Made by a program: the position numbers and the translations under genes. The notes under the pieces are model-generated. The model ran no database searches and was not told where the DNA came from. It worked only from the letters and a program-made list of their open reading frames with translations. Below, one piece after another: positions 7,593 through 39,337 of a DNA stretch of 64,000 nucleotides. Within the stretch, counting starts at the first letter, position 1, and every line of letters begins with the position of its first letter. The DNA is from Buxus sempervirens (taxonomy: Eukaryota > Streptophyta > Magnoliopsida > Buxales > Buxaceae), in assembly GCA_947561395.2 (NCBI GenBank), contig OX387191.1, positions 35,605,439 through 35,669,438 on the forward strand, read 5' to 3'.

Positions 7593-7736
7593 TGTATCCG
7601 ACAACTCAGATCGCATACAAAGGAGTCTCTTCGTATTCGATGAAGTATGCCGGATACAAGGAGATGTTAATGTATCCGACATATCATATCAGATATAAAG
7701 AAAAATCAGTGTATCCGGTCTGATATGCTGGATACA
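7593..7736. repeat. TATCCG hairpin array upstream of antisense gene A (element 1)
   Basis: There are four imperfect palindromes of 26-27 bp at 7593-7619, 7632-7657, 7671-7697 and 7710-7736. Stems are TGTATCCGA / GCATACA-like, GTATTCG / CGGATAC, TGTATCCGA / AGATATA and TGTATCC / GGATACA. Relative to gene A they lie 130-275 bp upstream of the ATG at 7463, where a promoter or 5' leader would be. The same stem recurs at 15157-15219 and in LTR 15695-18181. Confidence 0.85.
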
Positions 7737-9226
7737 AAGAAAAAATGCAAAAAAAAAAAGAGAAAAGGGAGGAAAATCCGAAATTTTTACCTGTTTCACC
7801 TGTGTACAAGTTATAATTGCATGAAATTAAAGAGAAAAGAAGGCAAGACGATAAAGAATGAATAAAAATTTTTTTTTATATATATAAACAAGTCTTTTTG
7901 TACAATGACAAGGAAAAAAGGAAAATCCTAATCTACTACTCCTGTGCAGGATCTCCTCGGCGTCCTCTGCCCCGTCCTCCTCTGCGACCTCTGCCTCGAG
8001 GTGATCGGTACCTAGAGTATGCCAGAATACGCTCGGCAGCATGGCGAGGAAGCTGACCCACAACCGATTGGATCTGATACTCCAAGCAATAATCCTCAAG
8101 GTCAGGAGGCGGATCAGGAGTAGAATCTGGGGAAGAGGCCCCGGGCTCAACAGGAATGGGCTCAACTGGACCCCCAGCCGTAGCGGTCTCCGCTCCCACA
8201 GCTCTAGAAGGCCCCGCAGCAGCAGAAGAAGGGCCAGGAACAGAAGTATCTTGGCCAATGGGAATAAAGTCAGAAATGGAAGCATCAAAATAAACCAAGG
8301 AGAAGAAACTAAAGAAAACTTACCAGGGACCTCAGGAGCAGAATTAGGAGCCGCTACAGGAGATGAGGTGCGGGCAGGGTCCGCAGGAGCCACAGCGGCG
8401 CCAAGAATAGGAGATGCGACTGGATCAGGATCAGTAGTAGGAGGGTCCTCTGGCTCAGGAACCGCCACTGGAGAGGAGGGGCCCACGGGCTCCACAGGAG
8501 CAGCTACCACTGGGTCAGCAGCCGGGGCAGCATTAGGATTAGCAACCCGAGATGGAGATGGATTAGGTACAGAGAAATCAGGCCTGAAAGCAGTATCCTG
8601 ATCTGGGATTGGGCCCTGCAAAAGTCAAACAGGCATATCAGAATAGCAGAAACAGGGAAATGAAAGTGATGAAATTATGGAGCAACCAGAGCCTCCAGCT
8701 CTCTAATCCTAGCATCCCGCTGGGCCACGACCGCGTCATGCTCTGCAATCATATCATCCACTATGGCCCGCTGACTCAGGAACCGATCCCGTAGAACATT
8801 CAACTCATGTACCTGCCAATAAGAACCGAATCAGAGTCACAAGTACAGAATTGAAGGAAATGGGATGAAAAATGAAAATCATGAAACTCACAGTGTCATC
8901 ATGAACCCGGATGTAGATCCCGCCAATCTCGGTCACCCCGGCACGAGTGGGTCGATCCATCAAGCACCCAATGGATACTCTCTGGATCCATTCGTTGTAA
9001 TCCCCAGATACTGTGAGCCCCTCCGCATCCTGAAAATGATCAAACTGATCAACATCAAAACCCGGCAGGAGCGTGTCAGGACCCACAGGAGGAGGGGGAA
9101 CGGGGATACGAAGTGTGCCTGTGTGCTGATAGTACAGGAGCTCTCCCAAATACATCACCCTACCAAGCCTCCCAAGGAAACACTGGTAGGGCTAACGTCA
9201 GAGATCTCTATCAAAGGCATCCTGTA

Positions 9227-9231
9227 CTACC
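9227..9231. repeat. Target site duplication CTACC, left of solo LTR
   Basis: CTACC at 9227-9231 is repeated at 12287-12291, directly abutting the TG and CA ends of the solo LTR. Removing the LTR and one copy rejoins exon 4 of antisense gene B in frame with its element 2 homologue. Confidence 0.9.
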
Positions 9232-9931
9232 TGTAAGCACCTCATTTTTGCGCTCCCAAAGAGCCAGAAATGCAAAGCCTGGCTAAAAAAGTCAAATCCT
9301 GAGGGGTGAAAAGTTGACCTTTTGATCAGATAAAATTTGGCCACCTGGATTTACCTCAATGGATAAAGAATCTCGACACGAATCCAACGCAACTGGGTTT
9401 GCAGGAATCGGAGTTCGGATGAAGGTCCTGCGGGCGGTCAAACTTAAGGAAGAGCCAAGAGTTGACTTTTCCTCGAATTCCATGCCAAGTACCTTTCTTT
9501 ATACCATTGGATAAAGAATCTCGACACGATTCCAACGCAACTGGGTTTGCAGGAATCGGAGTTCGGATGAAGGTTCTAAGGGCAGTCAAACTTAAGGGAA
9601 GGCCAAAAGTTGACTTTTCCTCGAACCCCGTGCCAAGAGTTTAGCCCCATGTCATTAAATAGAGGGCTCTGATACGAGTCTAACGCAATTGAGTTTGCTC
9701 AAATCGGAGGTCGGATAAAGGAGATATGATCTGTCGAAGTTTCCGAGTAGCAAAAACCGGGAACTGCACACGTGGCACAGGAACTGCACACGTGGCAGCC
9801 AACGCAGCAAAATATCTCAGGGACTAAATCCTAAATATCAAAAATTCGTACGGGCCAATCCGTAGATATCCAAAGGTGTCAAATCGGTCGAATCGGTCAA
9901 GTCAGAAGGCAAATCCGTAATTTTTCGATTT

Positions 9932-10178
9932 GTATCCGGCACCTAATACCGGATACGCTAGCTCCCCTTCATGACCGGACTTAAAGACCGGATACAAGGA
10001 GATTTTCGCGCGAGATTCGCGCCGATCGCCCGACAAATTCGCGGCGGCATTTAATTTTCAAATGATTATGTTTTGTATCCGGACTTGAAGACCGGATAAA
10101 AAGGAAGGCCAGTGTATCCGGACTTGAAGGCCGAATAAGAAGGGGTCTTAGTGTATCCGGCCTGAATTGCCTGATACA
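9932..10178. repeat. TATCCGG hairpin array in U3 of solo LTR
   Basis: Palindromes occur at 9932-9956 (GTATCCGG / CCGGATAC), about 9973-9995 (left arm degraded), 10076-10098 (TATCCGG / CCGGATA), 10115-10136 and 10152-10178 (TGTATC / GATACA). The last ends only 11 bp before the TATA box at 10189. Confidence 0.85.
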
Positions 10179-10188
10179 TTAAGTTGTC

Positions 10189-10196
10189 TATAAAAG
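10189..10196 (+). promoter_or_regulatory. TATA box of solo LTR
   Basis: TATAAAAG in CTATAAAAGGG, 957 bp into the LTR and just after the hairpin array, followed by a C/T-rich leader. Confidence 0.7.
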
Positions 10197-11092
10197 GGAA
10201 ACAGCAGCCTGATTTCCGGGGTTGGCCTCATTTCTTCTGTTTTCCACCCCTCCTCCCTCAGACCCCCTGCTCCGAAACCTCTCCCTTTTGGCCACCTTTG
10301 ACTCTCCAAGGCCCTCCAAGCCTTACTCAAAGGCTCTCCTACCCCCTCCTCTCTTCTTCTTCTCCATCTTCACCCCACCAAGAAGGAGGGTACCTGCTGT
10401 TTTGGTGTTCAAGAGGAGGAGCCCCATCTGCTGCCACCACTCGGAGGAGGCTCAACCCATCCCCCATAAGGGTTTAGACCCCAAGGTAAACCCTTCCCCT
10501 GTATCATGTTCAACATATATTAAAAGGAGCATTTTCTGAGCATGATTTGATACTTTCTGTTTTAGCATGTTTTCCATAGCCTTAGGAGTGATATTTTGTC
10601 CGTGTTATCTCATTTGCATGGGGGAGCATGTTCCCCCATTCGATTATTCATCCAATGTACCCCATTTTAAACCCCCCTCATTCCCTTCCCTAAATAGTTT
10701 GTTTGAATGATTTTGCATGTGTGCTGTGCATGAAGTGAGTAGTTTAATATATAAGCCTAAGCTAGATTATGTAGGTTATGCTTTTTTATGCATATTTCTT
10801 GAAAAGCATGCCCCCCATGCCCCTTCCACTTACTATTGTGCATATAGGCATGTCCCCCAACCCCTTTAGTACCTGTTAGCATGCCCCAAATCCTTTGCCA
10901 GGGATTGCTGCCCAGCTAGTTAGCCTCCATCAAAGCCCCCATCTTTTCCCTCCAAATTCTCAAAAAGAAGAGCCAAGTGGCCCTCCCCTGGACCAACGTG
11001 GGCTCACACAGGAGCCCACATGATCACTGAAACATCCCAAGAGGCATAAGAGGCCAACCCTAGTGCCAAAAATCCGAAAAAAGACTCTCTTG

Positions 11093-11239
11093 AGGTGATC
11101 CGGCAACTCAGGCCGGATCACCTGTGGACTAGGTGTATCCGGCCACTGGGGCCGGATCACCTATAGTCCCAGTGTATCCAGTCACTCAGGCCGGATCACC
11201 TATAGTCCCAGTGTATCCGGCCTGAGTTGCCGGATACAC
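11093..11239. repeat. Second hairpin array in solo LTR (R/U5)
   Basis: Four palindromes with long stems are present: 11093-11123 has perfect 12-bp arms AGGTGATCCGGC / GCCGGATCACCT, 11131-11162 and 11172-11200 are near-perfect, and 11211-11239 has perfect 11-bp arms GTGTATCCGGC / GCCGGATACAC. The CCTATAGTCCCA spacer between units is also repeated. A second array at a comparable place is seen in the LTR ending at 40186. Confidence 0.88.
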
Positions 11240-12286
11240 ACACAGAGGTGTTTTCTGTGTATTTTCTTGATGTCTTGCTGAATTTTAGGATGCCTTGAAC
11301 CGAACCAGACAAGCCGATAGGGTTTCCGGGCCACCCGGAAACCCAAGTTGGGACATGGACCGCCGGTCCAACTCGGAACACCCGTGGGCCTTCCAACGGG
11401 GCCCACCAAGCCCAATGAACCATAAAGCATGTGATTAAACAAATCAAAGTAAAATGAATTAATTAAACCGGTTGGGCCAAACTCAATGCGGCCCACCCGA
11501 ACCTTGCTATGTGAAATGAGTGCATAAATTGTGTGGTCTGGCCGAGACCAAGGGCTAGGGTCTATCGGGCCCGCCAAAGCCCGCCAACCGAACCATGTTG
11601 GGGTATAAGCCCTAAATTCCAAAGAACTAGGCTCTCAAGCCCAAAGCCTGGATCACAGGGGCCCAAGCCCAATGACCAGCCCGTTATGGCAAATTAAAGA
11701 AGATAAATGTAAAATTCCTTGGCCACCATATGGGCCCACCTAAGGGGCCCACAAACCCATCCGGCCCAATTTTTGCATGAAAAATACTTAAACACCAATT
11801 GAAACAACTAAGTAAAATCAATTCACCAACCAAAGCCCATAGGGCCTCCTAGGCTTAGACAAAGGCCCACATGGGCACATGGGCTTACTCAAGCCCACCA
11901 GGGACACCGTGGGCCTTCCAACAGGGCCCACCCAATCAGACTCAAATAACTTAAATCAAGCAAAGATAAAATCAACTAAAGGGACCCGCACCACTCAGGT
12001 GGTCCCGCCAAGACCTAACTTAAATGGCTACTGGATTAGGAATTGGGTGAGAACCAAATAGGAAAAGCTGACTCAAATCAGGGAACCCACGGGACCCGTC
12101 ATCCGACGGGGCGGACTGGGGTGTCTACGGACTTCCCCAGACCACAACCGAGAACCAAACTTAGAATCTCAAACCGCAGACCAAAAGCCCTAAGTAGACA
12201 AGATTAGGCACCCAGGTGTCCGCCTGCACTCCATCAGGCGGTGGCGACTCCAAATCACCCCGTGCCGCGTTTCCCATGCACGCACA

Positions 12287-12291
12287 CTACC
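12287..12291. repeat. Target site duplication CTACC, right of solo LTR
   Basis: This matches 9227-9231 exactly. Confidence 0.9.
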
Positions 12292-13772
12292 ATCTCACGG
12301 GCCACTCCAACATCCACGTCGTCAAAGCGTGCCAGGATGAGCTGCAAAGAAGAAAAATGGTCAGATACAGCCAAGGTGCAGGAAAAGAAATAAAAGGAAA
12401 AAGGGCAAAGAATTTACATCGGATCGTCGGGCACGGTCCAAGTGAAGCCGGGCAGTACGAGGCTGACTCCTATCAGCATCTCGGACCTGGGCCGACCAGC
12501 GCAAAGCAACAGGGAACTCCGCGACACCAGGTACAGGGGCGGAAAAAGGTCATATAGGTGTACATAAACACCTGGCAAAAGAAAAATCAGTCAGAGATAA
12601 AGAAGACAAAGCCTAAGGAAGAAGACAAGACAGATGAATTTAATACCTACAAAATCTGCCAGAAGAACCGGCAGCTGACTCTATCACCTCTCGGGGCTGC
12701 CAGGCCCCGAACTACTCGGCACAGCCCGGCCAGGATGGTCCCATATATGAGCCGACCCCATGCTAGCTGACAGGTCTGATGGAAATCTAGCAGAGCATCC
12801 AAGAAAAGAGGACTAACACTAGTCGTGTCCTCTTGGAAGAAGCAGCTCCCGAGCATCAGCAAAAACACGTGTCGAAAAATAGGGGCGAAGGCTGCATCCT
12901 CCACAGTGATGGTCGCGTGTCTCCCCTCATAATGTCGAGCAAGGCTCTCCCGCAGCCAAGTAATGGAGATTCGACCACTCCGCCCGTCCCAAGCAGCGGG
13001 AGGCAGGTCCTGATATCCCAAGAGAAGATCGATATCCTCCGCTGAAGGCCGATCCAAAATGATAGTCTGCCCCATCAGAGGAATACCGGTGATCATCACA
13101 AAATCAGAGGGGCGGATCCCCAGCTCCACGTCCGGAAGATGGAAGGACTGCGTCTCCGGAAAATATCGCTCCATCATAGCAAAGATGAGGGGACGGTCGG
13201 CTCGGAATGACGGGATGCTGAGAAAATAGTCCAAGTGGCACCTCCCAAACTCGCGCCTAAGTGCCGGGGAAAGCGACTGTGCCAACTCACTAAATCTCCC
13301 CCAACTGCCTCGCAGATAAGAAGGAGGATAGGGGAGAAGCACATCGGCCCGGATGCACATGGAGGGGTGGCTATCCAAACCACTGAGAAGCTCTGTATCA
13401 TGAACAGACTCTCTCAGCTCCGCAGAGACCCCTAGGCGCAAGGCTACAGCAGCACCCTCCTGGCCTGAAGCTCCGGCCCGGCCGCGGCCTCTCTCTCCAA
13501 CTCGGCCTCCGCCTCTCGCTTGGCCTCTACCACGGCCTCGAACAGGATCAATAACAGGCTAAAAGCAGAAATAAATGAGTGAAGTCGGTTCCAAGGAATC
13601 AGGGAAAGAAAGAAGAAAGGATTGGGAAGCCTACCTCAGCAGAGCTCTCCCTGGAGACATCTAGCGGCTCCAACAGGGTGGCGCTAGAACTCGCCTCTGT
13701 CCGAGCCCGCGAAGTGGAGGGCTAATCAGCAGGGTCAGCCTCCTCTCGCACACGGGAGCGACTCCTAGCCAT

Positions 13773-15694
13773 CTACACAGGGAAGTGTTTTATGAATTTC
13801 AGTTTAAATTTATCAGGAATTTTACCCCACTTTTGGCCTAGGTTTCAGTTCACCGGGAACCTTATAGGATTTTCCTTCAAATTATCATTTTACTTTTGCT
13901 GTTTCAGTTCAAAGTTTTTTAGAAAGTTTTTGAAGTTTCTGTCTAATTAACAATTGCATGCTTATCAGAAATTTTGGTTCTACAGTATTTTCATATGGTC
14001 CTAAGCGTCTCTGCAAAGCCTAATATTTCTTAATTTTCAGGTGCTCTGGAAAGCAGAACAAAAGGGGCAAAATAAAGGTCAATATTGGTAAGCATACTCC
14101 AAGGGCTACCAAGGCGCCAAGTTCAGGGTGGTCATGCAAAAAAAAAAATCTATAGAACCAGGTCTGCTCAAGAATAAATCACAGGCAAGTTTGGACAATT
14201 AAAGCCCTGCCTTGATCAAAAGCATGTGGAGATCAGATTAAGGAAAATACATCATAAGCATGGTATTTGAAAATTGGAGGGTAGGCAATTCTTCACCACC
14301 GGCAATTTAGAAACATTGGGAAATCATGCCACTCAGTGGAGAAATGTCACCGGCAATTAGGCTCAAGGAATTACAAATCAGGAATTGGTAAAATCAAGAA
14401 AGAATATATACAGCAGGGTTACACACAAACATGCAATCACAGAATCAAAAGGAATGTGGCATAAAGGAGTCCTAAGTTCACGACAATCGAAGCAACAATT
14501 GCATGGATTAAGGAATTCGTGAGGATACATTTGGGTTACTGCATCAGGATATAAGTTGGCTTCAGCAAACATCAAAATATAGCAATAAGAGAGCAGACTG
14601 GGAATTTTCTGAAAACATACCAAATGCTGTATCCATGGCACCTAAAGCATCATATATCAGGTGTAGAATCATGCAAGTCGAAGATATGTGATTATACCAG
14701 CAATTGCAAACAAAAAAAGAAAAAAAAAATCCATGCCCATGCCGAATTCAAGTCTGGCAGAAATAAGAGTAAGAACTACCTGAAATGGAGAATGGTTGTT
14801 ACCGTCAAGAGCCAAACGAATTACCCAAGGTAGGTAGCGGCAAAAAAAACAAATAGGAATGGCCGCCGGAAGAACAATCGCTGGAAGTCATCGTGAGATG
14901 GCCGGAATCCGAGAATCGCAGACGAACAGTGAGAAAATCACTTGAAATCAGGAGAACTAGGGCTCGGCAATGAGTTAATGTCTTCGGAGTCGATGCAAGT
15001 CGCCGGAGCTCTAAGAATCATCGCCGGAGTTGGTGGAGTTCGTTGGAGAGGATGGGCGCAACAGTCGGAGAAGAAGAAGGTATCCGGAGTTTGCAATCGG
15101 GGAAGAGAGAAAGGAAGAGGGAAAGTCGCGGTCGCGCGCAACTTAAATAACAAGGCGTATCTGACATCGTACGTCGGATACAAGAGAGCCCTCTCTTATC
15201 CGACATACTATGTCGGATACAAAAGGAAAAAACAAAAAAAAAAGAAAAAAAGAAAAGAAAAAAGGGAAAAAAAAAGAGGAGGAGCAAAAAGAAATAAGCT
15301 GCAAAGTCTGCTATTCTCACAAAAAATCCCTATTTTGCCTCAAAATCTACTTCATAGCCACGAGAGCTCAGTGGAATTTGAACAACTCCGGGAAATGTGT
15401 TGGTCAAAAAGGAAGATATTCACTCAATTTTTAACTTGGTCTGATAAAAAATCAGTTTTCAAAAAATCCTATTTTTTGGCTTAAAATCCACTTCATAGCC
15501 ACGAGAGCTCAGTGGAATTAAGACCTCTTGGAGAAATGCCCCCTTTAAGTTAGGGCTTTTTGGCAAATCTTCACCCAAAAATTATTTTCTACAAAATTGA
15601 ATTAAACCAAGCAAATCATGGTTAATGGAGTGCAATTTGGGCTTGTCTAATCTTTACAGCTCATTGCTTCGTAACTCCCGCAAAGAGGGGCAGT
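13773..15694. other. Element 1 region upstream of antisense gene B and polypurine tract
   Basis: No convincing ORF is present. Relative to gene B this is the promoter/leader side, with CGCCGGAG-rich sequence around 14860-15040 and the hairpin pair at 15157-15219. Two direct copies of a block containing CCACGAGAGCTCAGTGG lie at about 15359 and 15499. The region ends with the purine-rich tract AAAGAGGGGCAG (about 15682-15693), the plus-strand primer site next to the 3' LTR. Confidence 0.65.
15157..15219. repeat. TATCCGAC hairpin pair upstream of antisense gene B (element 1)
   Basis: The first is GTATCTGACaTCGTaCGTCGGATAC-like at 15157-15181. The second is a nearly perfect palindrome at 15197-15219 with 11-bp arms TATCCGACATA / TATGTCGGATA around one base. 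It lies about 1.4 kb upstream of the gene B ATG, matching the 1.3-kb distance of the corresponding array in element 2. Confidence 0.87.
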
Positions 15695-15794
15695 TGTAGA
15701 CACCCCAAAGTGCACGGTAAAAATGATCAATAATCAGTAAAAATCACTATCTCCTTGGAAACCAGCACAAAATTTGAGAAAATGAGTTTTTTCC

Positions 15795-15939
15795 TTGTAT
15801 CCGACAACTCAGGTCGGATACAAGCGTATCTGTTCGTATCCGATGGAAAATGCCGGATACAAGTAGCCCTCAATGTATCCAGCAACATATGCTGGATACA
15901 CATAGGCGCTAGTGTATCTTACCTGACATGTCGGATACA
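15795..15939. repeat. TATCCGAC hairpin array in U3 of LTR A
   Basis: There are four palindromes: 15795-15823 (perfect 11-bp arms TTGTATCCGAC / GTCGGATACAA, 7-base loop), 15836-15860 (GTATCCG / CGGATAC), 15874-15900 (perfect 10-bp arms TGTATCCAGC / GCTGGATACA) and 15913-15939 (TGTATC / GATACA). They lie 165-310 bp upstream of the TATA box. Confidence 0.9.
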
Positions 15940-16104
15940 TTAGTTTTGCTCAAAATTAGGGTTTTCCGAGAGCTTTCACCTTTTACCATCATATCCCTCA
16001 TTAAATGAGTGGAAATCTCGAAAATAGCCTTAGGGTTAAGGTTGGTGGGCTATAGACCTTATGTTGTGTCTACCATCTCACCAACCCTAACCCTAGCCTT
16101 TGCC

Positions 16105-16112
16105 TATAAATA
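16105..16112 (+). promoter_or_regulatory. TATA box of LTR A
   Basis: TATAAATA in GCCTATAAATAGGAGG, 410 bp into the LTR. The homologous box in LTR B is 419 bp in. Confidence 0.75.
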
Positions 16113-16433
16113 GGAGGCTCCTCCTTAAGCAAATGGCCAACAACTCTTGTCAAGAACTTTTGCCAAGAAGAACTCCGAGTGAAGAGGAGAACCGCTGTGG
16201 AACTGCTTCCAGAACTCAGGTAAGCCTCAAACCTATCTTTAATTTTCTGTCTTTACATTCTAGATCTAGATCTCTTTTTCTACCTTTCTGTAGAATAAGG
16301 CCTTTGATGTGTGTATGAAAACCCTTCCCCGGCTCAAAGTATCTCAAGACTCCCCCTAGCCGTAAAACGTGAAGGCTGGATCTAGGAGAAACAAGACTGG
16401 GGATTGATCCTAGTGCTAGAACCTCTTTTGAAT

Positions 16434-16757
16434 AAGCCTTTTGAATCTTTGAAGACCGTTCCATATTCAAAGTACCCCAAGATTATCTTGAAGAACCATG
16501 CTTAACGGGGAGAGAGAACTAAGGGAAACGATAATGGAACGGAACCCTAGGTTGTTCTAGAACCCCTTTTTTATTGATCTAAATGCATGCTATAAGCCTC
16601 TTGATTCTATGAAAACCGTTTCATATTCAAAGCACCCCAAGATTATCTTGAAGAACCGTGTTTAACGGGGAGAGAGAACTAAGGGAAACGATAATGGAAC
16701 GGAACCCTAGGTTGTTTTAGAACCCTATTTTGATTGATATAAATGCATGCTATCTTT
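16434..16757 (+). repeat. 160-bp tandem duplication in LTR A
   Basis: Two almost identical copies with a period of 160 bp contain the block TTAACGGGGAGAGAGAACTA and the following GGAACGGAACCCTAGGTTG. A weaker third relative lies just upstream around 16310-16390. Confidence 0.85.
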
Positions 16758-18202
16758 TCTATATTGTTGGAATGATTCTTACACCTACACATACATGGCA
16801 CGTGATTTTGGCGGGATAAGCTAATATTTCGGATTTATTGCATTTATTGTGATAAATCTGAAATAAATAGCCCCAAGTAATTCTGGAATATTTTCAAATG
16901 ATTTTCAAAGGATATTGATTAATCTTGCACGGATCACACACACTTTATCACTATTTGGAGTTGGTTTTCTTCAAAAATGGCTTAACTTGACAGCAACTGT
17001 ACCCCGACTTCGGACACTCATAACTTCATCGTCCGGATGAATTTTGGAGTGATTCCTGAATCATGGGAAAAGTGAGGCTGTCTAGTTTATGTCTACCAAA
17101 GTTCATTAATTTCTATCAAGCAGATTTTTGACACCTCTCTGTCGAAGTTGATAGGTCAGTTCTGATCTGAATACAAAACTTGTCACATCGACTGAGCGCC
17201 ATGTGTTCGTTTTAAGTCAGATTTGAGTGATTCTTGTTTCTGAGTTTTACTATGGAAGTCTAGTTTTAAATCCAGTTTGTTTCATTATTTTTGGACTCCA
17301 TTTGTGTCGTGAGTGACAGATTTACTCAGAGCTGTTCAACAGCACTTTTCTGGGTAAATCTGTGATCTTCGGGTCCTATTTAGGAGACTACCCAAGGCAC
17401 ATCCGAATGAATTTTTGTATGAGGCTAGTTTCATTTGAAAGATGGCCATACAGACTTCACTCACACCAAATTTCATAAATTTATATGGAGCCGATTTTGC
17501 TAGGTGATTTTCCAAACTTACCCACTCGCCACTTTTAATTATCTCCAGCAGCAATTTTAAAGGAGGCATAACTCCTAGGATTTCAACCGGATTCAATTGA
17601 AATTTTGCATGAGTCTCTTATTTGCCATAATCTTTCAAATGAATTTGGTTTGATTCAATTTAAAATTGGATTTGAATAATTTCAAGACAAATGGCATTAT
17701 CTTTTACCGAATTTTCCAGATTTGACTCAACTTGGTTTTGTGCAATCTTTGCTTTGATTTCCATTTATTGTTAATATTCCAGAAATGATATTGACATAAA
17801 AGAGGATCTGGAATTCATTTGGATCTTCATGTGAAGATATCATACATTTGTCCTTTTTCAAGGTTTTTAATGATTTTTAGCAAGCTTTCTTACCTTTTTA
17901 GCATGAACAAACACTTGGCAACCACCTTGTGTGGGTGAATGGGGGTGCCTAACACCTTCTTCTGTTCATAATCTAATCCCCTTACCCATCTCTGGATTTG
18001 ATTTTCAAGTAGAGTTATTTTTACTCTAGAATTTGTCTTTTAACTTTTTTGCCTATTTTTGAATCTTTTGGTGTCCATTCACACCCCAAAATTCTGAATG
18101 GTGGCGACTCTCCCATTTTTACGTTGAGCCCGTGTGTTGATGGCGGGGAAATCATCCCGGTGATTTTTCCCATGTCTCACAGGGGCAGATTTTAAGCTGA
18201 AG

Positions 18203-18628
18203 TTGAATGAAAATGAAATGACAGGTGAAAGGGTAGAGGAGGTGCCAACAATTCCCTTTAAGCAATTTGAGCAAACAAATGGCCTAACACTGGATGTTGA
18301 ACAGGAATTCAGTATGGATGATAATGATTGTCCGAAGGGTATGGAATCACTCTTCATACAAGAAGAAAATGAAGCAGAGGTAATTGAAAAAGGAAAATCC
18401 CAAGAAAAGAAAAAAGAAGATTCAAATGAAAAGATTGAGGCCAGGTTTAAGCTTCCATTGATTGACTGGACTGCAATCCAGATTCCATATCAAGGACTGT
18501 CACTTCTTTTAGAGACTGAGCATAATGCCCCAAGGAAGGAGATCATCCCAAATCATGAAGGTTTGCCTCACTCAATAGGAGAAGGATATTTTCTAAAAAA
18601 AGAAAGAAAAGTCAGCATCTACCTTTAA
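18203..18628 (+). pseudogene. Element 2 pol remnant: protease-RT linker
   Basis: This 141-codon frame contains LPLIDWTAIQIPYQ, the counterpart of LPFIDWVAVKIP in element 1 pol. It continues as non-coding homology to about 19050, where YDFDI-like acidic linker codons are recognisable around 18885-18990. Protease and G-patch sequence are not found upstream, so the left part is lost or replaced. It is not functional. Confidence 0.7.
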
Positions 18629-19050
18629 GAACAGGGGCAATTTTCGAACTCCCACGTTCTTTGAAAAGAAACCCCCATAAAAAGAATACACATTTCCTGA
18701 GGATCCTAAGGAGCCTTGTTCTCGGGAAGTAATTTCAATAAAGGCTCTTTAAAAAAACTAAAAATAAAAAAACAAATTTTCCCCTTTAACATTTTTCTAG
18801 AAAAAATAAAAAAATTTTCTACAGGGTCCTTTTTACTTATGAGTTATATCTCCCATTGAATTTCATTAAGTTGAATATGACTTCGACATTGGGCTCAATT
18901 TTGAGACCAAAATTGAAGAAAAAGACATTTTATATGAAAATTCAAATCCTTTTAAGTGTCATGAGAAGAATATTCTGCAAAATTATGAAATGACCAATTT
19001 CATGGCCTTTGGAACTAAAGATGACCCATAGTCTTCAACAAAAAAGATAG

Positions 19051-20807
19051 AAGAAGATTTGAAGTTCCTTCATTAGAATACAGAAAGGATCGCACCACTT
19101 GCTGATTCGTTCAAAGGGAAGTTGATAATATTGTTTGAAGAAATTTTGGGGCTTTGCACTTGAAAATATGGGAGAATCTGACCTTTTCGTTGGAAATAAA
19201 ATTGGGCATCATTTGATGGAAAGAATCCAAATTCATAAGATTGATCAAAAGGTGAAGAACTTGTTCATAACAGAAGTTCTATTTGAAGAGGCTTTCATGT
19301 TGACAGAAGGTGATTAAGAAGAAAAAAAAAAGAAGAAAAAATCCTGAGCCAGTCATGTAGTGCAACTCTACCAAGTCTAAAATTCAAACTTTTCTTAAAA
19401 TGATAAGAGGCCTTTCTTTCTTATATCCCCAAAATTTTTTAAATCCCTAGTTAAACCCTTTGAGATTGATAAATTTTTCCAAGTAACCTAAACTGAGAAT
19501 TGTAACCCCACACTGGGGCAAATTTATTAAGGCATAAAAAAGGGAATGAAGGGACAATTGAAGTTCAAAACGGATTTCGAAGATGTTTTCAAAAAAGGGG
19601 GCAAAGAAATGAGAAAAAAAAAGGAAAAAGAAAAAGGAAGAAGGAAGAAAAAGAAATCATCAAATGCTATGGGATATTTGGAGAATGTCTTTAAAATTGT
19701 GAAGAGAAGAATGGAAAAGGAAGTTCAATACTGGAGAATAAGTTTCAAATGAAGAAATGAAAGTGGGGGAAGAACTTCATTACTGGGGGCAATTTTGTAT
19801 TCATTCCAAGGGAAGAAATGCCTTAAAAATTACAATTTCAGTTAACCCATTTGATCATATGGTATTTAAGCCTTTTATTCCTTTTCTTTCTAAACTAACA
19901 CCAAGCCTTCGTTTCATCCCATTCATAAGTCCTCTTTGATTAAGAAATTTTGAATTAAGGCAGTTTTGACTACATAGTTGCTGGTGATGAAGGATAAAAA
20001 AAAAAGGAAAAAATGAAGGAAATGTAGTGAAAACTCGAAAGGGCGCTACATGGCAAATAATCAGCTATCTACAAGAAGGAAATCGTAAGAGAGGAAAGTC
20101 CAAAATTGGCATAGATCCAGATGAAGTCCTTATATTGGAGGTTATTTTGAGATACAGTCACTCATCAAGTGATTGAGGAAAATTCTCTTTTCAAGACTGA
20201 AGCAACATAATCAGAACTATGTTATGAAGCCTCTGTGAACAAGTTGATGGCCATCAAAATTGCCATTAGGAAATTGTTGCTGAAGTTGAAGTCATAAAGT
20301 CTCATATCATGGATATAATGGAGAAACAATTGCTTTTCAATTGGATGAAGGAAAATGTCTTTCTAGACTGGGGCAAAATAGTCAGATTGAAAGAGTCGTC
20401 ATATCTGGAGCATCAATTGACAAGCCGATGGTCATGGGAATGATTCTAAAGGTTCCGAATGCTTATTTTGGTCATTCTTCATTTTCTGAAAAAATATTCA
20501 CATTATTCAACTTGATTTTAATTCTTTTGGACTATATGCTAATAAGTGATTGGATCATTTTTCAAAAAAAATATAAAAACACAAAAAAAGCAAAAGAAAA
20601 TATTTTTGGCCAGTGATGAGAAATATAATACTTTTCATAAAACTTTTGTTTTTACAAGCATCTGAGAATTCTGAGGCCAATAATATAAAACCTATTTTTG
20701 AATTTAAATCCTTTGTCTTTCCATTATTGGAGTTTGCTTTTGTATAAAGGTATGAAAAAAAATAGAAAAGAAAGAAAAAAATGGGGGGAAATGCAATAAA
20801 AAAAGAT
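19051..20807. other. Element 2 deletion scar and 3' spacer
   Basis: Only short frames are found, none with pol motifs. From about 19380 the sequence matches the post-integrase spacer of element 1, and the last 180 bp match 5570-5740. In the element 1 counterpart about 3 kb of RT-RNase H-integrase lies within this junction. The sequence between 19135 and 19320 has a 60-codon frame that I cannot assign. Confidence 0.6.
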
Positions 20808-22522
20808 CTAATCCCTATCCCTTAACTGCTCCTCAAGCTCCCTAATCCGAGCCGCCTGAGTTGCAATGATTCCAGAAGCTCCCTCTGCATCCAGATCGCT
20901 CAAAAAGGAGATGACCTCATCTGAAAGAGATTGATTGATCTTCAAAGCCCTAAGGTCAGCCAGGGAATCCTGATATTTCTTCCGCATCGCTTGAACTTCA
21001 AAGCGACGAGCCTGTCTTTGTTCTTCAAGTTTCTTCTCCATAGCAATGCAGCAAGACACCTGCTCTTCAAGTTGCCTTTCTAGATCAATACCTTTTATCC
21101 TGAGTTCTTGGGCTTCTCGTACCCATATTTGTTGAAGCCGCTTGTGGGTTGCCCTTTCAGACTCCAGGATGTCTTCATAAGTAGGGGGAAGAACTGCAAG
21201 AGGATCCTCTGGTACTGGGGCATGACTCTACACCTGCTCTTTCATCCAGAAATGATAGTCCTTCACATGGGACTCAGAAAAGACCGGACCCCGCAGAAAA
21301 TGAACATAGGACCACTCATTCATTAACCGAGCATTTAGCCCCATGGTGGCTGGGGTAAGTGGCCCAAGGAAGTTCTCATATCCAGTTGGGATCGTGATCT
21401 GCTGGGTTGCTCCAAACTACTGAAAAACCCTCATAGAAAGATAGAGAACAGTAGATTTCAAGCCTGCTAGAACCAGAAAGTTCCTATCTCTGAAGCTGAT
21501 CACTGTCTTTGAATTGGGCTGATAAGTGCCAGGCCATCTCACCTGATCATCTTGGAGAGTACCCAAGAAAGTGAACCAGCCCTGCTTGCCGCCGTGGATG
21601 TTAGGACACCCCCTGTTGTTCATCAAAATAGGAACTTTCAATCTTGGAAAAAAGCGGCGAGTTATCTCTTCAACTTAACTCAGGTGGTCAAGTAACCAAA
21701 GATGCAAAAAAGGGAAGTATTTTAATTTATTGCAAAAAAAAAGAAGAAAAAAAAGGAAGAAAAGAAAAAAAAAGAGAAAAAAGAAAAAAAAAAAGAGAAG
21801 AAGAAAAAAAATTCCTTTTTTACCTGTAGGATAGGGACACATGCAAGCAAATGTTTCTTCTTTCTGAAATAGTAGTCAGTCAAGGCCTGGTATATCTCTG
21901 CCAAGATCATAGGGGCCAATCTCTCACGTTCCCTAACCTGGCAGACAACTGAGATGAGAGGCAAGTCAACCTGGTCGTCACCCCGTGGAAAGAGCAACTG
22001 GTTGACCACTATCAAAGTCAAAGCATTAAACCGAGCGTCTTTGTCCTCACCCCTTAGAAGTTTTTCAGTTAGAAAGGTCTTGGACAAGGTCAACAGTGTA
22101 TTAGAACCCCCTAAGTCCTTCTTCCCTATACCCAAGAAAGTGGATGCCTCCTTTTTATAGCTAGGCTTAAGGGGTGGGTTCACTACTTTTTCAGAAAATC
22201 TTAGGCCAAGGATGGTTTCAATTTCTTCAATGGTAGGAGTCATCTCTTTGTCATCAAAGCGGAAGAGATTCAATTTAGGTACCCAGTGCCCAATCAAAGC
22301 CTCAATGATTTCCCACTTAAAGGGAATTTTAGAGATATGTAGGATGTGACCTAGGTGGATGGAATCCCAACGAATTTCCTCATCAAGGGTCATAGAGTTA
22401 ACCCACCTATCATAGAAGGAATCCACAACATTGTACCTGGTGAGATTAGGAGGTTTTGATCTAACAAGTTGTCTTGCAGGAGAAGCTTCGTCGGCGGAAG
22501 AGAACGGTGCAAAGGAAGCCAT
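20808..22522 (-). pseudogene. Element 2 antisense gene A: DUF7745-like protein, intact first exon
   Basis: Exon 1 runs 22522-21824 (233 codons, no stop, phase 0) and exon 2 21701-20808. The donor GT is present. The acceptor dinucleotide, AG in element 1, is AT here, so splicing would fail or move. Exon 1 has YDRWVNSMTLDEE, HLGHILHISKIPFKWEII, ALIGHWVPKLNLFRF and MTPTIEEIETILGL. Exon 2 has stops near its start, at 21417 and at 21228, the last at the same place as in element 1, and ends in a coiled coil (LEEQRQARRFEV to LEEQLRDRD). The intact exon 1 contrasts with the lost pol and could mean younger age or retained constraint. Confidence 0.8.
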
Positions 22523-22657
22523 GGAATCACCAAAGAAGCCAAGAAAAGCAAAAAACGGAGGGCTCAGGGAGTTTTCAAACTATTAAAAACGTCACAATGA
22601 CGTTCCCCATGAGTTTATATAGAAAACTCGAAAATACAATAAAATCCATCTTTACAA

Positions 22658-22791
22658 TGCGGGCACCGCGTGCTCGTATGGAAAGTGCGGACACCGCGTG
22701 CCCGCAATAAAATTACGGGCAGCGCGTGACCGCAATGAAATTACGGGCAATGCGTGCCCACATTCATGTTACGGGCATTGCGTTCTTGCAT
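22658..22791. repeat. TACGGGC hairpin array upstream of antisense gene A (element 2)
   Basis: Five units of about 22 bp follow the pattern T(A/G)CGGGCA-nnGCG-TGCCCGCA, spanning 22658-22791 with intervals of about 22-28 bp. The arms are degenerate palindromes (CGGGCA / TGCCCG). The array lies 135-270 bp upstream of the ATG at 22522. This is the same place as the TATCCG array of element 1, but the stem sequence is entirely different. Confidence 0.85.
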
Positions 22792-23013
22792 TTAAAATAC
22801 GGTTTCTTCGAAAAAATGCAAAAAAAATGGGGAATTTCAATTTCATTGCTTTCCTAGGCTTCACTTGTCCCGTCTTAAACATGCATCATGCAAGGGAAGC
22901 AAGAAATAAAGAAGAAAATAACATAAATGAAGAAAAATGAATCAAATTTCTTTTTTATATATATGGAAGTGTACATCATTTGTCAAATACAAGTATATAT
23001 GTGATATCCTAAT

Positions 23014-25842
23014 CTAATCTGTCTCTCCAGGACCACCCTTATGGCCACGACCACGTCCTCTGCCTCGACCGCTACCTGAAGGTCGCCGGTGCTCGAAAAC
23101 ATGCACCACAAGACGATGAGCGGTACTACGGGTCATCCTACTCAAAATAGACTGAATATCATACCACATATATAAAGGCACAAGGCCAGCAGTGGGATGA
23201 TCAGGAGGAATGTACCCTGAGGTATCTACATCTCCCGCAGACTCCGCATCAGAATCCGTAGGGACGGGCTCAGTCACAGGCTCGGCGGCAGGCCCCGCAC
23301 TCCCACTGGCCGCAGACCCGGAGGAAGGAACAGACGCCCCAGGAGCATCAGCATCAGGCCTAGGCTCCACAGGGCCAACAGAGGCCTCCTATATCACCAC
23401 AGCCTCCTCGGTAGGCTCCATCATAACGGCATCCCCGGCCGACTCCATCTCAGCAAGCGCATCAAGATCGGTCTCTGGTGCTAGAGTAGACTTTGGCACG
23501 TCCTCAGTAGTAGGGGTAGCGGGTAGGTGTAACCTCGGTCTCTATATCGGGCTTGGCTACAGGCACCTCTACACGAGCTGCATCAGTGACACAGAAAAGA
23601 CCTCGCCGTGGGGATGTGTATAATAAGGTGAAGAAGGACCGGCTGTGTCACCCTGAAAATAAGAAAAGGAATTTTAGTCAGAACAGAATAAGCAGATAAA
23701 AGAAGCAGAAACTGAAAAGGGTGAAAGAATTAACCTGAGTATGAGAGGGACCCGCCTAGTCCTGTACACCAGAAGGACCCACTTGGCCCTGTGCCCTAGC
23801 AAGCTGTCCCCTGAGATTGGCAATGGTGAAAAGGAGGGCGTCTCGCTCGGTAATAGCGGCATCTCGTTGTCGCTCTATATCAGCGTACCGAGCTCGAATC
23901 TCTGCCAACTGAGCCTCCTAAAATAGAAAAAAAGGTGTCAGAAATACCAAGTCAAATATAATATAAGAATGGAAGATCAAAAAGGGAAAGGCATACCGTG
24001 GTATTGTAGGCCCTGATCACTACCCCTCCTATCTCAGTGATTCTGCCACAGACAGGCATGGGTGGCATGAGGCACCCAACTGAAGCCTGCCTAAACCAGG
24101 CGTCATAGTTACTCTCCTCTAACATAGTCTCTGCCTCAGTCCAATCTAGGAACTGAGCAGGATCAAGAGGCATAGGAGGAAAAGAAGGGGTAGTATCCGG
24201 AGGGATAGCAGGAATCCAAGGCTCTCGGACGTGCTGATAAAAGAAGCACTCGCCGCAATACCAGATGCTACCCATCTGACTAATAAAGAACTGGTAGCAC
24301 TGACGCCTCTGGTCAGGGGCAAACGCATCATCTCTAGCAGTATGCAGGGCCAGCACCTCATGAATGTCCTCCATCCGGGGAACTAACAGCTGAGAAACAA
24401 AAAAAAGGAACATTAGGCATGTGATTCAGGAAAGGGAAAAAGGAAGAACTAAAGAAGCTTACCTCAGTCCAATACAGCCTGTCCAGATGGGCCCGGGCAG
24501 ACTTAGGCCGACTCTTTTCATAGTCGTGCTCCACATGGCACCATCTACAAGCCATAGGATACGTCTCCTCTGGTATCGTAGAGGTAGGGCGGAAATAAGG
24601 TATATAAACCCTAGCAAAAAACTGCAAAAGAAGAAAAAAGGGTCAAAAGAATAAAAAGAAGAAGAAGAAGAGGAAGAAAAAATAGAGAAATAGGTATTTC
24701 ACCTGCAAGAAGGGCCAAAAGAATCTGCATCCGACCCCGGCTCCTCAAGAGGTAGAGAGGCCGATAACTGATCGGCGCAGGCCAGCCAAAATGGTGCCAA
24801 AAATAAGCGGCCCCCAAGCGTACCTCCTCGCTCGCTACAGATCTCCCAATAAACTCAAAAAATGAGGACTGACAGAAGTCATGTCCTCTGGGAAGAAGCA
24901 GGAGCCCATCATGTAGAGGAAGACAAAGCGGAATGCAAAAGGGAAAGATGCATGATTGGCGGTAAGCTGGCTAAACTCTCTCTACCAGAAGGTCTCTCTT
25001 AACCAAGCAGAGACAATCTAGGTCTCCCTCTATCCCAGGCCTCCGGGGGCAACACCACATATCTGAGATAGGCATCACCATCTCAGGGATAATATCTCCA
25101 GTCATCCTAATCTCGGTGATGAGTGTGAAGTCGGACGGCCGGATCTCGATCTCAATATCTGGAAAATGGAAGCTCAACGTCTCTGGGAAGAACCACTCGA
25201 GCATCGCTGCAATAAGAGCTCGATCCAAGCGAACATCTGGGATGGTAATGAAGAGGCCGAAACCAAACAAGCCCAGCTCCCAGCAGAAGGATGAACTACA
25301 GTCTCCAAGAAATCTAATGAAGCTGGCCCAGCTCCCTCAGTAATGAGACAGAGGATACACCAAAGGCATATCCACCCTAATATAGGCTGAGGGAAGAGTC
25401 CTCATGCCATGTAACAGGTCAGTATCCCTAATATGTGCAGCGACCGCCTCAGGGACCTCAACCCTAGCCCGAGCCTCCTCCTCGCCTTGGCCCCTGCCAC
25501 GGCCTCCTCTACGACCCCCATCACGGCCACCATCTTTGCCTCTAGTTTGTCGCTCGCCACGACCCCTGCCTCTACCTAGAGCCTCGACTACCGGCTAAGG
25601 AAACAATTGGAAGGAAGAAATAATCAGGGTGAAGGATTTAGGGAAGGAATTTGAATTTTAGAAAGGCTAGAGTATACCTCTGGGGTCGCCTCACGCGAAT
25701 CCCCAGAAGGAAGATCTGGGATATCAAAATCAGAATCCCCCGCTACTCCTGAAGAAGACGCCACATCAGTGGGATCCCTCCGAACCCTAGAGGAAGAGGG
25801 CTCATCAGCAGGATCCCTAGGGGCAGAACGAATACGAGCCAT
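23014..25842 (-). pseudogene. Element 2 antisense gene B: plant-mobile-domain-like protein
   Basis: Exons inferred from GT-AG sites and homology: 25842-25678 (55 codons, MARIRSAPRDPADEPSSS), 25594-24703 (PMD-like core, LEWFFPETLSFHFPDIEIE; frameshifted), 24621-24463 (53 codons), 24389-23997 (131 codons), 23917-23735 (coiled coil, 61 codons, one stop) and about 23653-23014. The last exon ends in GRGRGRGRGHKGGPGETD. Four of these have lengths divisible by three, which supports the model. Exon 2 is 892 bp and contains frame breaks, so no full protein can be made. The RG-rich C-terminus and coiled coil suggest nucleic-acid binding and self-association, as inference only. Confidence 0.73.
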
Positions 25843-27569
25843 CTGCGGGTTTAAATCAGGAAGATGATTTGTTATTTCTTTTCCTTGTAACTTTTATTGC
25901 CTTTGTTCTTTATTCTGATAGAGTTTAATTGTTTGCAAGAAAAATAAAAGTAGAGAACGAGGGAAGAATTTCAGAGGCTCCCAACCAGGCCAGGAGTCCA
26001 CCAAAGAAATCTACCTTGCTGTTCTCCAAAAATTCTTAAGAAGAGAAATACCAATAGCACCATCGGTACTAAGCTACAAAATCAAGGATCTTGGTGTTGA
26101 AAGTGGGACGGTGCCCAAATCAGAATGCCGAAATATGACAAACCCAGGGTTAGAGCAGGCTATAAATATCATTGTTTCCCAATTCCTAATCATTGCTTCA
26201 GATTTTTTTTAAGATCGGGAAACCGAATGAAGATGGTGTCTTGATAGATAATATTCATGCCAACAAGGTAATATTCATTCCAACAGAAGTCATGGAAAAG
26301 AAAAGAACAACCAATCAACAGGTCAACAATGTAAAGTTAGATGGCATAGAACAAAATCAAGGTTCACACAAGAAAATAAAAAATTCAGGAACAAATCATG
26401 GAGCTACCACAAATCATATAATCATAAGTCATATGCTCAAAATGAAGTGTTCAATACCGGCCAATGGTCAGATACAGCAATTCAGAGTCAGCATTTCATT
26501 GGTCAAAACAGAAAATTGCATGGGACAGCTTCCTGCTTCAGGGGAATGAACAGGTCTCAGCCAAATGAACAGACAAAATCAATTTTGGTCAAACAAGAGA
26601 AACAATATAGGCAGGATAATCAGGGAATGTCAAAGGCAGTAGACAGTTACAATCCCAATCATAGTCAGCAGCTCAGAGAAATTGCAAAGCATAGAGAATT
26701 TCGACTAAGGAGCATAGCAAAAACCATGCTTACAATCTGACAAGGAATGCCAGAAAGATGAAATAGGCTTTAGGCATACCTGTTAGATGCAAAGAAAGTC
26801 AAAGCTTGAAGTCCACTTACTGGAGAAGGAGATCAATGGCAACGGCTCAAGTCTTGAAGAGACACAACGGCAACAGAGGCATTGTCGCAAACGACAGAAA
26901 TGCAGCAAACGACAGCCGAACAGTAGTCACTGGAGAAGCAAGACGTCGCCGGAGAAGGTGAGGTCGACCAGAGAAGAATGAAGTCACCAGAGAAGATAGG
27001 TGTGGTCAATGGAGAAGATTGAAAACCGTAATGAGGTTTGCGGTCACAGGGAAATCGAAGAAGAAGTGCGAGCAGAAATGGAGAAGCTGTTCGCGGTCGC
27101 GAATAAGTAAAGCCCTAAAACCCGTAGAAGATATACGGGCAATAGAAGCCCGCAAAGGTAATACGGTCATTTGCGCCCGTATTAAAGTTGCAGTCATTAC
27201 TTGCCCGCAATGAAAATACGGGCAAGCCAGAAAATTGCATTTTTTATGATTTTCTTCATACTTTTCAGGAGATTAATGTTTATATTAGTTGTAAATTGCA
27301 AGGATTGCCACCTTACCCACTTTTGTTTAAAAATTTTGTCTCAAATCTCACTTCATAGTCATGAGTGCACAGTGAGCCTAGAGAGGAAGATTTTTCCCCT
27401 TAAGGTTAGGGACTTTTCAGCAAATTCTCCACACAAATTCTTTTGTCAAAATCATCCTTTTAATCCTTGCAAATTGCAATTAGTTAGACAAATCTCAAAA
27501 AGTGCAGTTTGTGAGTCTTTTTGCTCTCTTCTAGTAATTGGTTCCAATTACCAGCAAAGAGGGGGCAGT
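25843..27569. other. Element 2 region upstream of antisense gene B and polypurine tract
   Basis: There is no gene. Like the element 1 counterpart it contains GTCGCCGGAGAAG-type repeats (26930-27010), a hairpin array (27133-27226) and a purine-rich tract immediately before the LTR. Small plus-strand frames here have no recognisable content. Confidence 0.65.
27133..27226. repeat. TACGGGC hairpin array upstream of antisense gene B (element 2)
   Basis: The palindromes include ATACGGGC / GCCCGCA at 27133-27153, AATACGG...CCGTATT at 27160-27183, and TTGCAGTC...GCCCGCAA at 27188-27210, followed by a half-site ATACGGGC (27216-27223). They lie about 1.3 kb upstream of the gene B ATG. Confidence 0.82.
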
Positions 27570-27671
27570 TGTAGACACCCCAAATTGCACTACAAAATGA
27601 GAAAATAATTAAAAACATATAATTGGGATTTGAAAATGCATAAAATTTCATAAAATTTCATCAAACAAGCA

Positions 27672-27780
27672 GTGCCCGTATTTTACTTACGGACTGGTCA
27701 CGCCCGCAATTACTATACGAGCATGCCGCGCTCGTAGTAAGAATGCGGGCAGCACTTGTCTGCAATGTATATACGGGCAC
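27672..27780. repeat. TACGGGC hairpin array in U3 of LTR B
   Basis: The array is bounded by GTGCCCGTAT (27672-27681) and its inverse ATACGGGCAC (27771-27780). Inside are TACGGAC / GCCCGCA, the perfect TACGAGC / GCTCGTA pair, and TGCGGGC / GTCTGCA. It ends about 209 bp upstream of the TATA box. Confidence 0.87.
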
Positions 27781-27988
27781 GAGGTTTTTGTGCGAATTTT
27801 ATCTTTGCTCGATTTCTGAGCCTTATCTGCATCCAAATATCTCTCTAGGATGGGCGAGTTCTCTTATTTATCTATTCGAATTATCCTATTTATCCTTGTT
27901 GGTCATGGATTGGCATTATCCCTATTGTCAATCCAATCTGGGGGATCATGGTATATCCCTCTGGACCAACCATGCCCCTGGGTTTGCC

Positions 27989-27996
27989 TATAAATA
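27989..27996 (+). promoter_or_regulatory. TATA box of LTR B
   Basis: TATAAATA in GCCTATAAATAGAGG, aligned with the box of LTR A. Confidence 0.75.
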
Positions 27997-32162: not shown

Positions 32163-32170
32163 TATAAATA
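32163..32170 (+). promoter_or_regulatory. TATA box of solo LTR 31297-36791
   Basis: TATAAATA, 866 bp into the LTR, followed by a C/T-rich leader (32210-32360). Confidence 0.55.
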
Positions 32171-39257: not shown

Positions 39258-39337
39258 AACCGTATGATTTATACGGTTTCGCCAGAACCGTATGATCTAT
39301 ACCGTTTTGCCAGAACCACATGAATTTCACGGTTGTG
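39258..39337. repeat. AACCGTAT hairpin array, second cluster
   Basis: 39258-39278 has perfect 8-bp arms AACCGTAT / ATACGGTT, about 39286-39306 has one mismatch, and about 39314-39336 is degraded (AACCACA / CACGGTT). The unit GCC(T/A)(G)AACC recurs between them. Confidence 0.87.

Follow-up and report, generated by a model that had tools for sequence, protein, structure and literature searches.

A 64-kb stretch of the Buxus sempervirens genome (hereafter, the window) contains two related long terminal repeat (LTR) retrotransposons, elements 1 and 2, each with two antisense genes, A and B. Short palindromes are arrayed before the LTR promoter and before both antisense promoters, and the sequence of the palindromes differs between the two elements. 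What might read these arrays, and how can their sequence change at three promoters together? An earlier note on this DNA had proposed that the palindromes are hairpins with element-specific stems, replaced at three separate sites and recognized by a common, possibly element-encoded, factor. Analysis of the window and of the 676.5-Mb host genome revealed one geometry, three half-site codes, and agreement among the three promoters in every copy in which all three could be read. On balance, we favor a reading of the arrays as operators for a dimeric factor, probably the plant mobile domain (PMD) protein encoded by gene B.

Results

The window holds six LTRs (LTR-1 to LTR-6), and the half-sites of its palindromes fall into three sets: TATCCG (set 1), TGCCCGYA/TRCGGGCA (set 2), and AACCGTA (set 3). 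In element 1, set 1 units stand in an exact 39-bp register at the promoter of gene A (7595–7736, minus strand; four units, decayed), at that of gene B (15158–15219, minus strand; two units), and in the unique 3′ (U3) region of LTR-1 (15797–15939, plus strand; four units). A minus-strand TATA box (CTATAAAT) lies ∼14 nt from the edge of the A-promoter array, and the edge of the U3 array is 166 bp before a TATA box at 16105. Element 2 carries set 2 at the same three places, in a 28-bp register with one 27-bp step: at the A promoter (22658–22805, minus strand), where a minus-strand TATATAA sits between the array and the ATG; at the B promoter (27119–27227, minus strand); and in the U3 region of LTR-2 (27672–27780, plus strand), the edge of which is 209 bp before a TATA box at 27989. 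These six arrays, all listed in the earlier note, were confirmed. A whole-window matrix scan added one further strong unit, at 27119–27141 in the B-promoter array of element 2, along with some weaker placements outside arrays.

Five more arrays, and with them the third half-site set, had escaped the earlier inventory. LTR-3 carries a five-unit set 1 array in 39-bp registers (9933–10176, plus strand), ∼11 bp before a TATA box at 10189, and a second, four-unit set 1 array in 39-bp register downstream of the TATA box (11097–11236, plus strand). LTR-6 has two set 3 arrays of the form AACCGTA/TACGGTT (37817–37962 and, in 28-bp register, 39257–39335; both plus strand), and LTR-5 has a set 2 array in its U3 region (63300–63490, plus strand), ∼14 bp before a TATA box at 63504. 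LTR-4 (31297–36791) showed no clear array and counts as a miss. Altogether, the window contains 11 arrays with 41 registered units and 82 half-sites. The claim that neither stem motif occurs in the other element holds for arrays but not for single matches, since TATCCG occurs at 24194 in element 2 and TACGGGC at 9849 in LTR-3, within the span of element 1.

All 41 units conform to CCG-N11-CGG; the 11-bp distance from CCG to CGG is the same in all three sets. This geometry also emerged from an array-blind scan of the 64 kb, in which CCG-N11-CGG ranked first among inverted 3-mer and spacing combinations (spacings 0–45); its 25 pairs compare with a mean of 4.7 across these spacings. In 200 local shuffles, the maximum was 7 at N11 and 10 at any spacing. 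The sets themselves are well separated: with matrices built by leaving out one array at a time, the correct set was recovered for 80 of the 82 half-sites. The more alike codes are those of sets 2 and 3 (CCGTA in common). In set 2 and LTR-6 arrays, N11 also separates neighboring units, which places a half-site every 14 bp and gives the 28-bp period, and set 1 units are spaced 39 bp apart. Across the host genome, the set 1 form TGTATCCG-N11-CGGATACA occurs 23,806 times (reversed control, 0) and the set 3 form AACCGTA-N7-TACGGTT 977 times (control, 1).

A lattice of half-sites at a fixed N11 spacing describes the arrays better than hairpins do. Among 224 paired core positions, 186 have both sides intact and 34 have a change on one side; both sides have changed alike in 3 and differently in 1. 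Changes are mostly one-sided. Each consensus half-site contains one CpG, and much of the variation resembles CpG decay. The same counts bear on the possibility that the palindromes act as RNA, through transcript hairpins for packaging, processing, or small-RNA targeting. Maize Sirevirus LTR palindromes are reported to be small-RNA hotspots (PMC10760457, PMC5311732), and LTR-3 and LTR-6 each have a second array at a downstream position that transcription would cover. Against an RNA role stand the excess of one-sided over matched changes (34 versus 3), although a one-sided C-to-T change can keep a G-U pair; the use of N11 both inside units and from one unit to the next in set 2 and LTR-6; and the ending of promoter arrays before the TATA box, outside their own transcript, although transcription of U3 does occur from the 3′ LTR. 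Because the changes are mostly one-sided and the promoter arrays lie upstream of TATA, we regard an RNA function as improbable.

Promoter position was examined in two motif-blind samples from the host genome. A survey with gene A of element 2 as query started from 15,482 first-look candidates, of which 136 are listed as scored copies; the 30 best-scoring of the 136 were cut out with their promoters, and 29 of these are copies other than the query. A second survey, with the first 240 bp of LTR-5 as query, listed 40 copies, which apart from the window's own are 93 to 97% identical to the LTR start in the window; 19 of the 40 were read. Both samples consist of close relatives and so do not represent independent events. 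N11 was the top spacing in each, with 76 pairs in the 29 gene A loci (56 inside arrays; the other 20 are largely a single match that recurs in the gene B region) and 75 pairs in the 19 LTR-5 copies. The TATA box follows the array by 13 to 14 bp in 19 of 19 LTR-5 copies; at the gene A loci this distance is 22 to 23 bp in 20 of 29, 15 bp in three, 50 bp in four, and 94 bp in one, with none in the remaining locus. Arrays thus stop just before the TATA box in LTR-3, in LTR-5, and at most gene A promoters.

Conservation is higher in half-site columns than in most spacer columns, a difference that is partly built in because units were picked by half-site score. For 56 neighboring units taken by position, the CCG/CGG core and adjoining TA columns carry 0.98 to 1.44 bits and the spacer 0.19 to 0.71 bits; conservation is weaker in these position-only units and less clear in the LTR-5 family. 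This pattern is relevant to an account that needs no reader, in which tandem duplication seeded the three places in an ancestor, descent or block recombination maintained them since, and the arrays are now functionless. Two of the four units at the A promoter of element 1 are indeed near copies of U3 units: the first two units at each place (7595–7654 and 15798–15859) are alike in spacers and half-sites and stand in the same order. The sequence CAACTCAGG recurs in a unit of LTR-3 (11097–11119), and such sharing suggests that copying of units has taken place from site to site and across LTR lineages. Gene B shares one block with the three sites as well. Half-sites are nevertheless kept better than spacers, N11 is constant across three sets and two LTR lineages, and the place before TATA is constant, though recent descent would also give constancy within a family. 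We give very little credence to arrays without a reader.

The check that the earlier note called for, concordance of the three sites within a copy, bore out its expectation: 11 of the 11 host genome copies readable at all three sites are concordant, eight with set 2, two with set 1, and one with set 3. The 11 comprise window elements 1 and 2, seven other set 2 copies, a second copy of the element 1 type (L049), and a copy of a third type (L083 with L085); two are thus the original window elements, and two were partly chosen by motif. At the gene A promoters of the 29 best-scoring other copies, 28 have clustered set 2 units (107 units, with none of the other sets), and one (L035) has no clustered units. 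For 20 copies, we read 2-kb slices covering the B-promoter place and U3, where the identity of the first array group as the B promoter was judged from its distance to the LTR start. Both places carry set 2 in seven slices (L038, L041, L043, L044, L047, L052, and L056), and the 13 incomplete slices were excluded from the count. Among the latter, L039 and L054 have set 2 at the B-promoter place only, and L053 has a single set 2 unit beside an opposite-strand LTR, which was not attributed. No array was found at the expected place in 8 of the 20 slices. Stray units scoring as set 3 occur within set 2 arrays, one each in L039, L052, and L054. Set 1 arrays in two set 2 slices (L042 and L058) were considered as exceptions and traced to nested LTRs of the LTR-1 and LTR-3 types.

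The other two types extend concordance beyond set 2. L049, which has no LTR-3 insertion and matches the gene B PMD at 88% (tblastn), carries set 1 at its A, B, and U3 sites (4 + 2 + 4 units); its A and U3 sites were found by motif, and only the B site was met blind. L083/L085, the third type bearing A and B, was reached via the palindromes in its LTR pair, and its A and B promoters were read blind. It has set 3 at the A promoter, at the B-promoter place, and in U3, one weak single set 1-like unit (in L083; score 12.1), a gene A that matches element 2 at 73% (tblastn), and a gene B. A further candidate, L006, has LTR-1-type LTRs and left genes A and B unmatched; it was rejected as an A/B-bearing element. 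All LTR-1-type copies (L006, L049, L050, and L060–L062) were reached via set 1 palindromes and so give no independent evidence that the LTR-1 lineage always carries set 1; LTR-3-type copies were likewise ascertained by motif, except those met by chance. The arrays, their geometry, their promoter position, and their concordance are direct observations, and so are two results given below: tracking of the code by B but not A in four copies, and the lack of A and B in one copy each of two code-sharing families.

Does either antisense protein follow the code? In four copies, gene B, not gene A, tracks it. For gene B (360 columns), identity is 0.63 between sets 2 and 3, 0.51 between sets 1 and 3, and 0.44 between sets 1 and 2, and sets 2 and 3, which have the more similar codes, are closest in 100% of 2000 bootstraps. 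For gene A (219 columns), sets 1 and 2 are closest instead (0.77, versus 0.69 and 0.68), in 99.4% of bootstraps. Within set 1 (element 1 and L049), identity is 0.84 for B and 0.78 for A, compared with means of 0.47 and 0.68, respectively, between set 1 and the other sets. Over the gene A columns in common, the two set 1 copies (0.78) are hardly closer to each other than elements 1 and 2 are (0.74). Between elements 1 and 2, gene A is 76% identical in amino acids over 558 codons, with a nonsynonymous divergence (dN) of 0.15 and a synonymous divergence (dS) of 1.17; gene B is 44.5% identical over 533 codons (dN 0.51, dS 1.78). Both genes have dN below dS; with dS near saturation and exon edges uncertain, no more than the dN contrast can be relied on.

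The A promoter, gene B, the B promoter, and U3 are contiguous and form one block of ∼5 kb. Three replacement events, as implied by replacement at three separate sites, are therefore not needed; a single template switch would be enough for all three sites. Nucleotide homology between the two elements breaks off at a point just within gene A, near its start, which, together with the discordant relations of genes A and B, fits block exchange. Because such a block would hold the likely reader, B, along with its three targets, the swap would be viable.

Both elements carry PMD sequences in their antisense genes. Gene A of element 2 (20811–22522, minus strand) is DUF7745/PMD by Pfam, its N-terminal ORF matching PF24924 (E 1e-20) and PF10536 (E 3e-12); that of element 1 (5743–7463, minus strand) is degraded, with stops. 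The gene B region of element 1 (7942–13558, minus strand), which is split by LTR-3, matches PF10536 at 12650–13558 (E 6e-13) and includes arginine-glycine-rich stretches, and the gene B exons of element 2 (23023–25594, minus strand) match the PMD at E 1e-3, below the Pfam cutoff. The pol region of element 1 matches RVT_3 at 2872–3558 (E 4e-18) and, at 3542–4771, the integrase core (E 1e-13) and H2C2 (E 8e-6); the ribonuclease H (RNase H) profile match is below its cutoff. This is a Ty3/gypsy pol with RNase H ahead of integrase, which, like the PF10536 domains of genes A and B as extra ORFs, agrees with the Tat group (Ogre-like). The TRP28 domain of Retand, PF04195, did not turn up at E up to 0.1 when six pieces of genes A and B were compared with Pfam; the pieces left out the arginine-glycine-rich ends and the later exons of gene B in element 1. 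Scans of viral contigs with integrase and gene A, and a protein database search with gene A, returned nothing useful. In element 2, the interval between LTR-1 and gene A (18182–20500) has no tblastn match to element 1 pol pieces at E 1e-3, and a short fragment at 18164–18625 weakly resembles the first ORF of element 1 (E 4e-4); element 2 here is truncated or without pol.

Codes are not confined to one LTR lineage, and the description of the stems as element-specific is not supported in that form. End-alignment scores (5′ plus 3′) split the six LTRs into {1,2} and {3,4,5,6}, with one exception: the 5′-end pair of LTR-2 and LTR-5 scored slightly above the shuffle maximum (29 versus 27). LTR-1 (15695–18181, plus strand; purine-rich AAAGAGGGGCAGT just before it) and LTR-2 (27570–29226, plus strand) are the 3′ LTRs of elements 1 and 2; LTR-3 (9232–12286, plus strand) is a solo LTR of the other lineage, nested in gene B of element 1 with the target-site duplication CTACC, and LTR-5 runs off the window. 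Across this split, set 1 is common to LTR-1-type and LTR-3-type LTRs, and set 2 to LTR-2-type and LTR-5-type LTRs. Set 2 arrays are present in all 19 motif-blind LTR-5-type copies read, where 87 of 88 units scored as set 2 and one as set 3.

Beyond the LTR, we read one copy each of the two code-sharing families. The LTR-3-type element L051, the LTR of which (L086) is 80% identical to LTR-3 and carries a five-unit set 1 array, has a long open pol frame that matches the reverse transcriptase and integrase pieces of element 1 at 70% and 69%; genes A and B were unmatched (E up to 0.01), and there was no array between pol and the 3′ LTR. The LTR-5-type copy L082 (C15:10009000–10013350) has a gag-like ORF, identified by eye, and as far as its 3′ LTR it matches neither the element 1 pol pieces nor genes A and B; its family is possibly a recently amplified nonautonomous one. 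From the parts read, the code-sharing elements probably lack an A or B of their own.

Since the same codes also occur in elements that lack A and B, the main rival to an element-encoded reader is a host reader: a dimeric plant factor family contacting CCG half-sites 14 bp apart, with the sets reflecting the preferences of paralogs on which LTR lineages converged. Such a factor would account for codes common to two LTR lineages and for their use by two copies without A and B. It would not lead one to expect that gene B tracks the set and gene A does not, and no plant factor that recognizes CCG-N11-CGG is known to us, which we count against it. In its favor, Ty1/copia Sireviruses have palindromes with a CGG-CCG core as well; against it, their CCG/CGG spacings, as read from Table 3 of the source, are 4 to 7 and not 11 (PMC2829016). 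We find host factors as the readers rather doubtful.

The remaining LTR features of the window are as follows. LTR-4 resembles a solo LTR, is unusually long at ∼5.5 kb, and is flanked by the duplication CATGG; for LTR-6, the 5′ end and TATA box were not found in the window. The sequence TGGCGACTC, which resembles a tRNA primer site, recurs near the end of four LTRs (in the window at 12242, 18102, and 29154). It was dropped as an LTR-end marker because the ..CACA ends common to LTR-1 and LTR-2 and the duplication flanking LTR-3 place it ∼44 to 79 bp inside the LTR; either the LTR ends or the primer-site assignment may thus need revision. LTR-3-type sequences lie in or beside gene B in three A/B-bearing copies: element 1 (9232–12286) and the set 2 copies sampled by L058 (668–1819) and L059 (8–537). 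This might reflect insertion targeted to gene B or chance.

Discussion

The mechanism that we favor would operate in a PMD-bearing Ty3/gypsy element of the Tat group (Ogre-like). The arrays would be operator sites, upstream activating or antisilencing, placed before the core promoters of all three transcription units, namely gag-pol, driven by the LTR promoter, and genes A and B, each driven by its own antisense promoter. A dimer with half-site contacts fixed 14 bp apart (CCG-N11-CGG) would bind each palindrome, and the bases around CCG would constitute a family code (TAT-CCG-RY, TGC-CCG-YA, or AA-CCG-TA). The most likely reader would be the element's own PMD protein B, possibly with A, and the element would regulate only itself and its code-mates. 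Code turnover would proceed by replacement or divergence of the block from A promoter through gene B and B promoter to U3 as a unit, and a single template switch between copackaged RNAs could change its parts together. The LTR-3 and LTR-5 families, without A and B, would be served in trans. Protein binding, the dimer, the sign of regulation, the identity of the reader, and service in trans are what we infer from the sequence patterns. The earlier idea of a common sequence-specific factor is well supported by such inference, and an element-encoded factor is favored, for which gene B is a better candidate than gene A.

Several observations weigh against this mechanism. The comparison of gene B with the code involves four copies only. 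B and the arrays are physically linked in one block, and their cosegregation could reflect linkage rather than function. Code sharing by two copies without A and B is accounted for more simply by a host factor, and the occurrence of CGG-CCG palindromes in the unrelated Sireviruses (PMC2829016) could point to a host factor class. Gene A has no relative among PDB sequences, and its single-sequence structure model was poor (predicted local distance difference test score, pLDDT, 41), with no DNA-binding fold identified in it. The LTR-1 and LTR-2 arrays, at 166 and 209 bp, do not adjoin their TATA boxes, and LTR-3 and LTR-6 carry second arrays downstream. The set 3 steps of L083/L085 are irregular (28, 41, and 28 bp at the A promoter, 39 bp at the B promoter, and irregular in U3), and the period is therefore not strictly tied to the set. 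With these points included, we hold with modest confidence that the arrays are operators for a dimeric reader, which is probably PMD protein B. A fuller version is offered tentatively: B may be a sequence-specific dimeric regulator that reads the CCG-N11-CGG frame with a changeable code, as a counterpart of the VANC proteins of VANDAL transposons; such self-recognizing circuits may diversify into mutually insulated codes, and the LTR-3 and LTR-5 families may parasitize each code in trans.

These arrays bear on the role of the antisense extra genes of Tat-group elements and on what, if anything, PMD proteins contact on DNA. Three natural code sets on one geometry, matched by B proteins that have diverged three ways and by an A that varies less, constitute a ready-made specificity-swap system. 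If B is the reader, these elements, an abundant class with apparent cheaters, would be another independent case in plants of a transposable element that recognizes its own family. The mechanism, if true, would also provide a lead to how the host PMD proteins MAIN and MAIL1 act at promoters.

Among known systems, PMD is a prominent extra-ORF domain of Ogre elements, present in 57% of them (PMC6317226), Retand elements have antisense TRP28 ORFs for which a regulatory DNA-binding role was suggested (PMC11963269), and Grande gene23 reportedly has its own promoter (PMC7264820). The accessible parts of these reports describe no promoter palindromes tied to the genes. Targets of Arabidopsis MAIN and MAIL1 have a "DOWN" promoter motif in common; the likeness is that PMD proteins are needed for the expression of genes with a common promoter motif, and the differences are that MAIN and MAIL1 act on host genes and that direct binding of the PMD to the motif is not stated in the part of that report available to us (PMC7156037).

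Two systems are closer. In Sireviruses, palindromes that differ from element to element cluster upstream of the LTR TATA box, and every one except a single case has a CGG-CCG core; in nine elements, palindromes also occur upstream of the extra gene ENV, and some distant elements have nearly identical motifs (PMC2829016). The elements described here resemble them in having CGG-CCG palindromes upstream of both the LTR TATA box and an extra gene. Sireviruses, however, are Ty1/copia, whereas element 1 has the Ty3/gypsy pol order; their CCG-to-CGG spacing is 4 to 7 rather than 11; and ENV lies on the sense strand, whereas genes A and B are antisense. Neither a cognate element protein nor one code across two LTR lineages of one host is described in the accessible part of that work. 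VANDAL transposons have family-specific arrays that are read by their own VANC proteins (PMC5735166), and the likeness lies in short, family-specific noncoding motif arrays that coevolve with a fast-changing trans-acting element protein (PMC5735166, PMC10398659). VANDAL is, however, a Mutator-like DNA transposon (MULE) with another protein family and demonstrated binding, whereas here it is the sequence of gene B that covaries with the set, and element 1, with its pol genes, is an LTR retrotransposon rather than a MULE with VANA and VANC. In our searches of open-licence papers, some of them on neighboring topics and with the listed papers followed up in part, we saw no Tat-group element described as having promoter codes of this kind. 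Most single ingredients have precedent, the closest being Sirevirus palindromes and VANDAL/VANC; the combination of one geometry, at least three codes, three-promoter concordance, tracking by gene B, and sharing with gene-less elements is, as far as we have seen, new for LTR retrotransposons.

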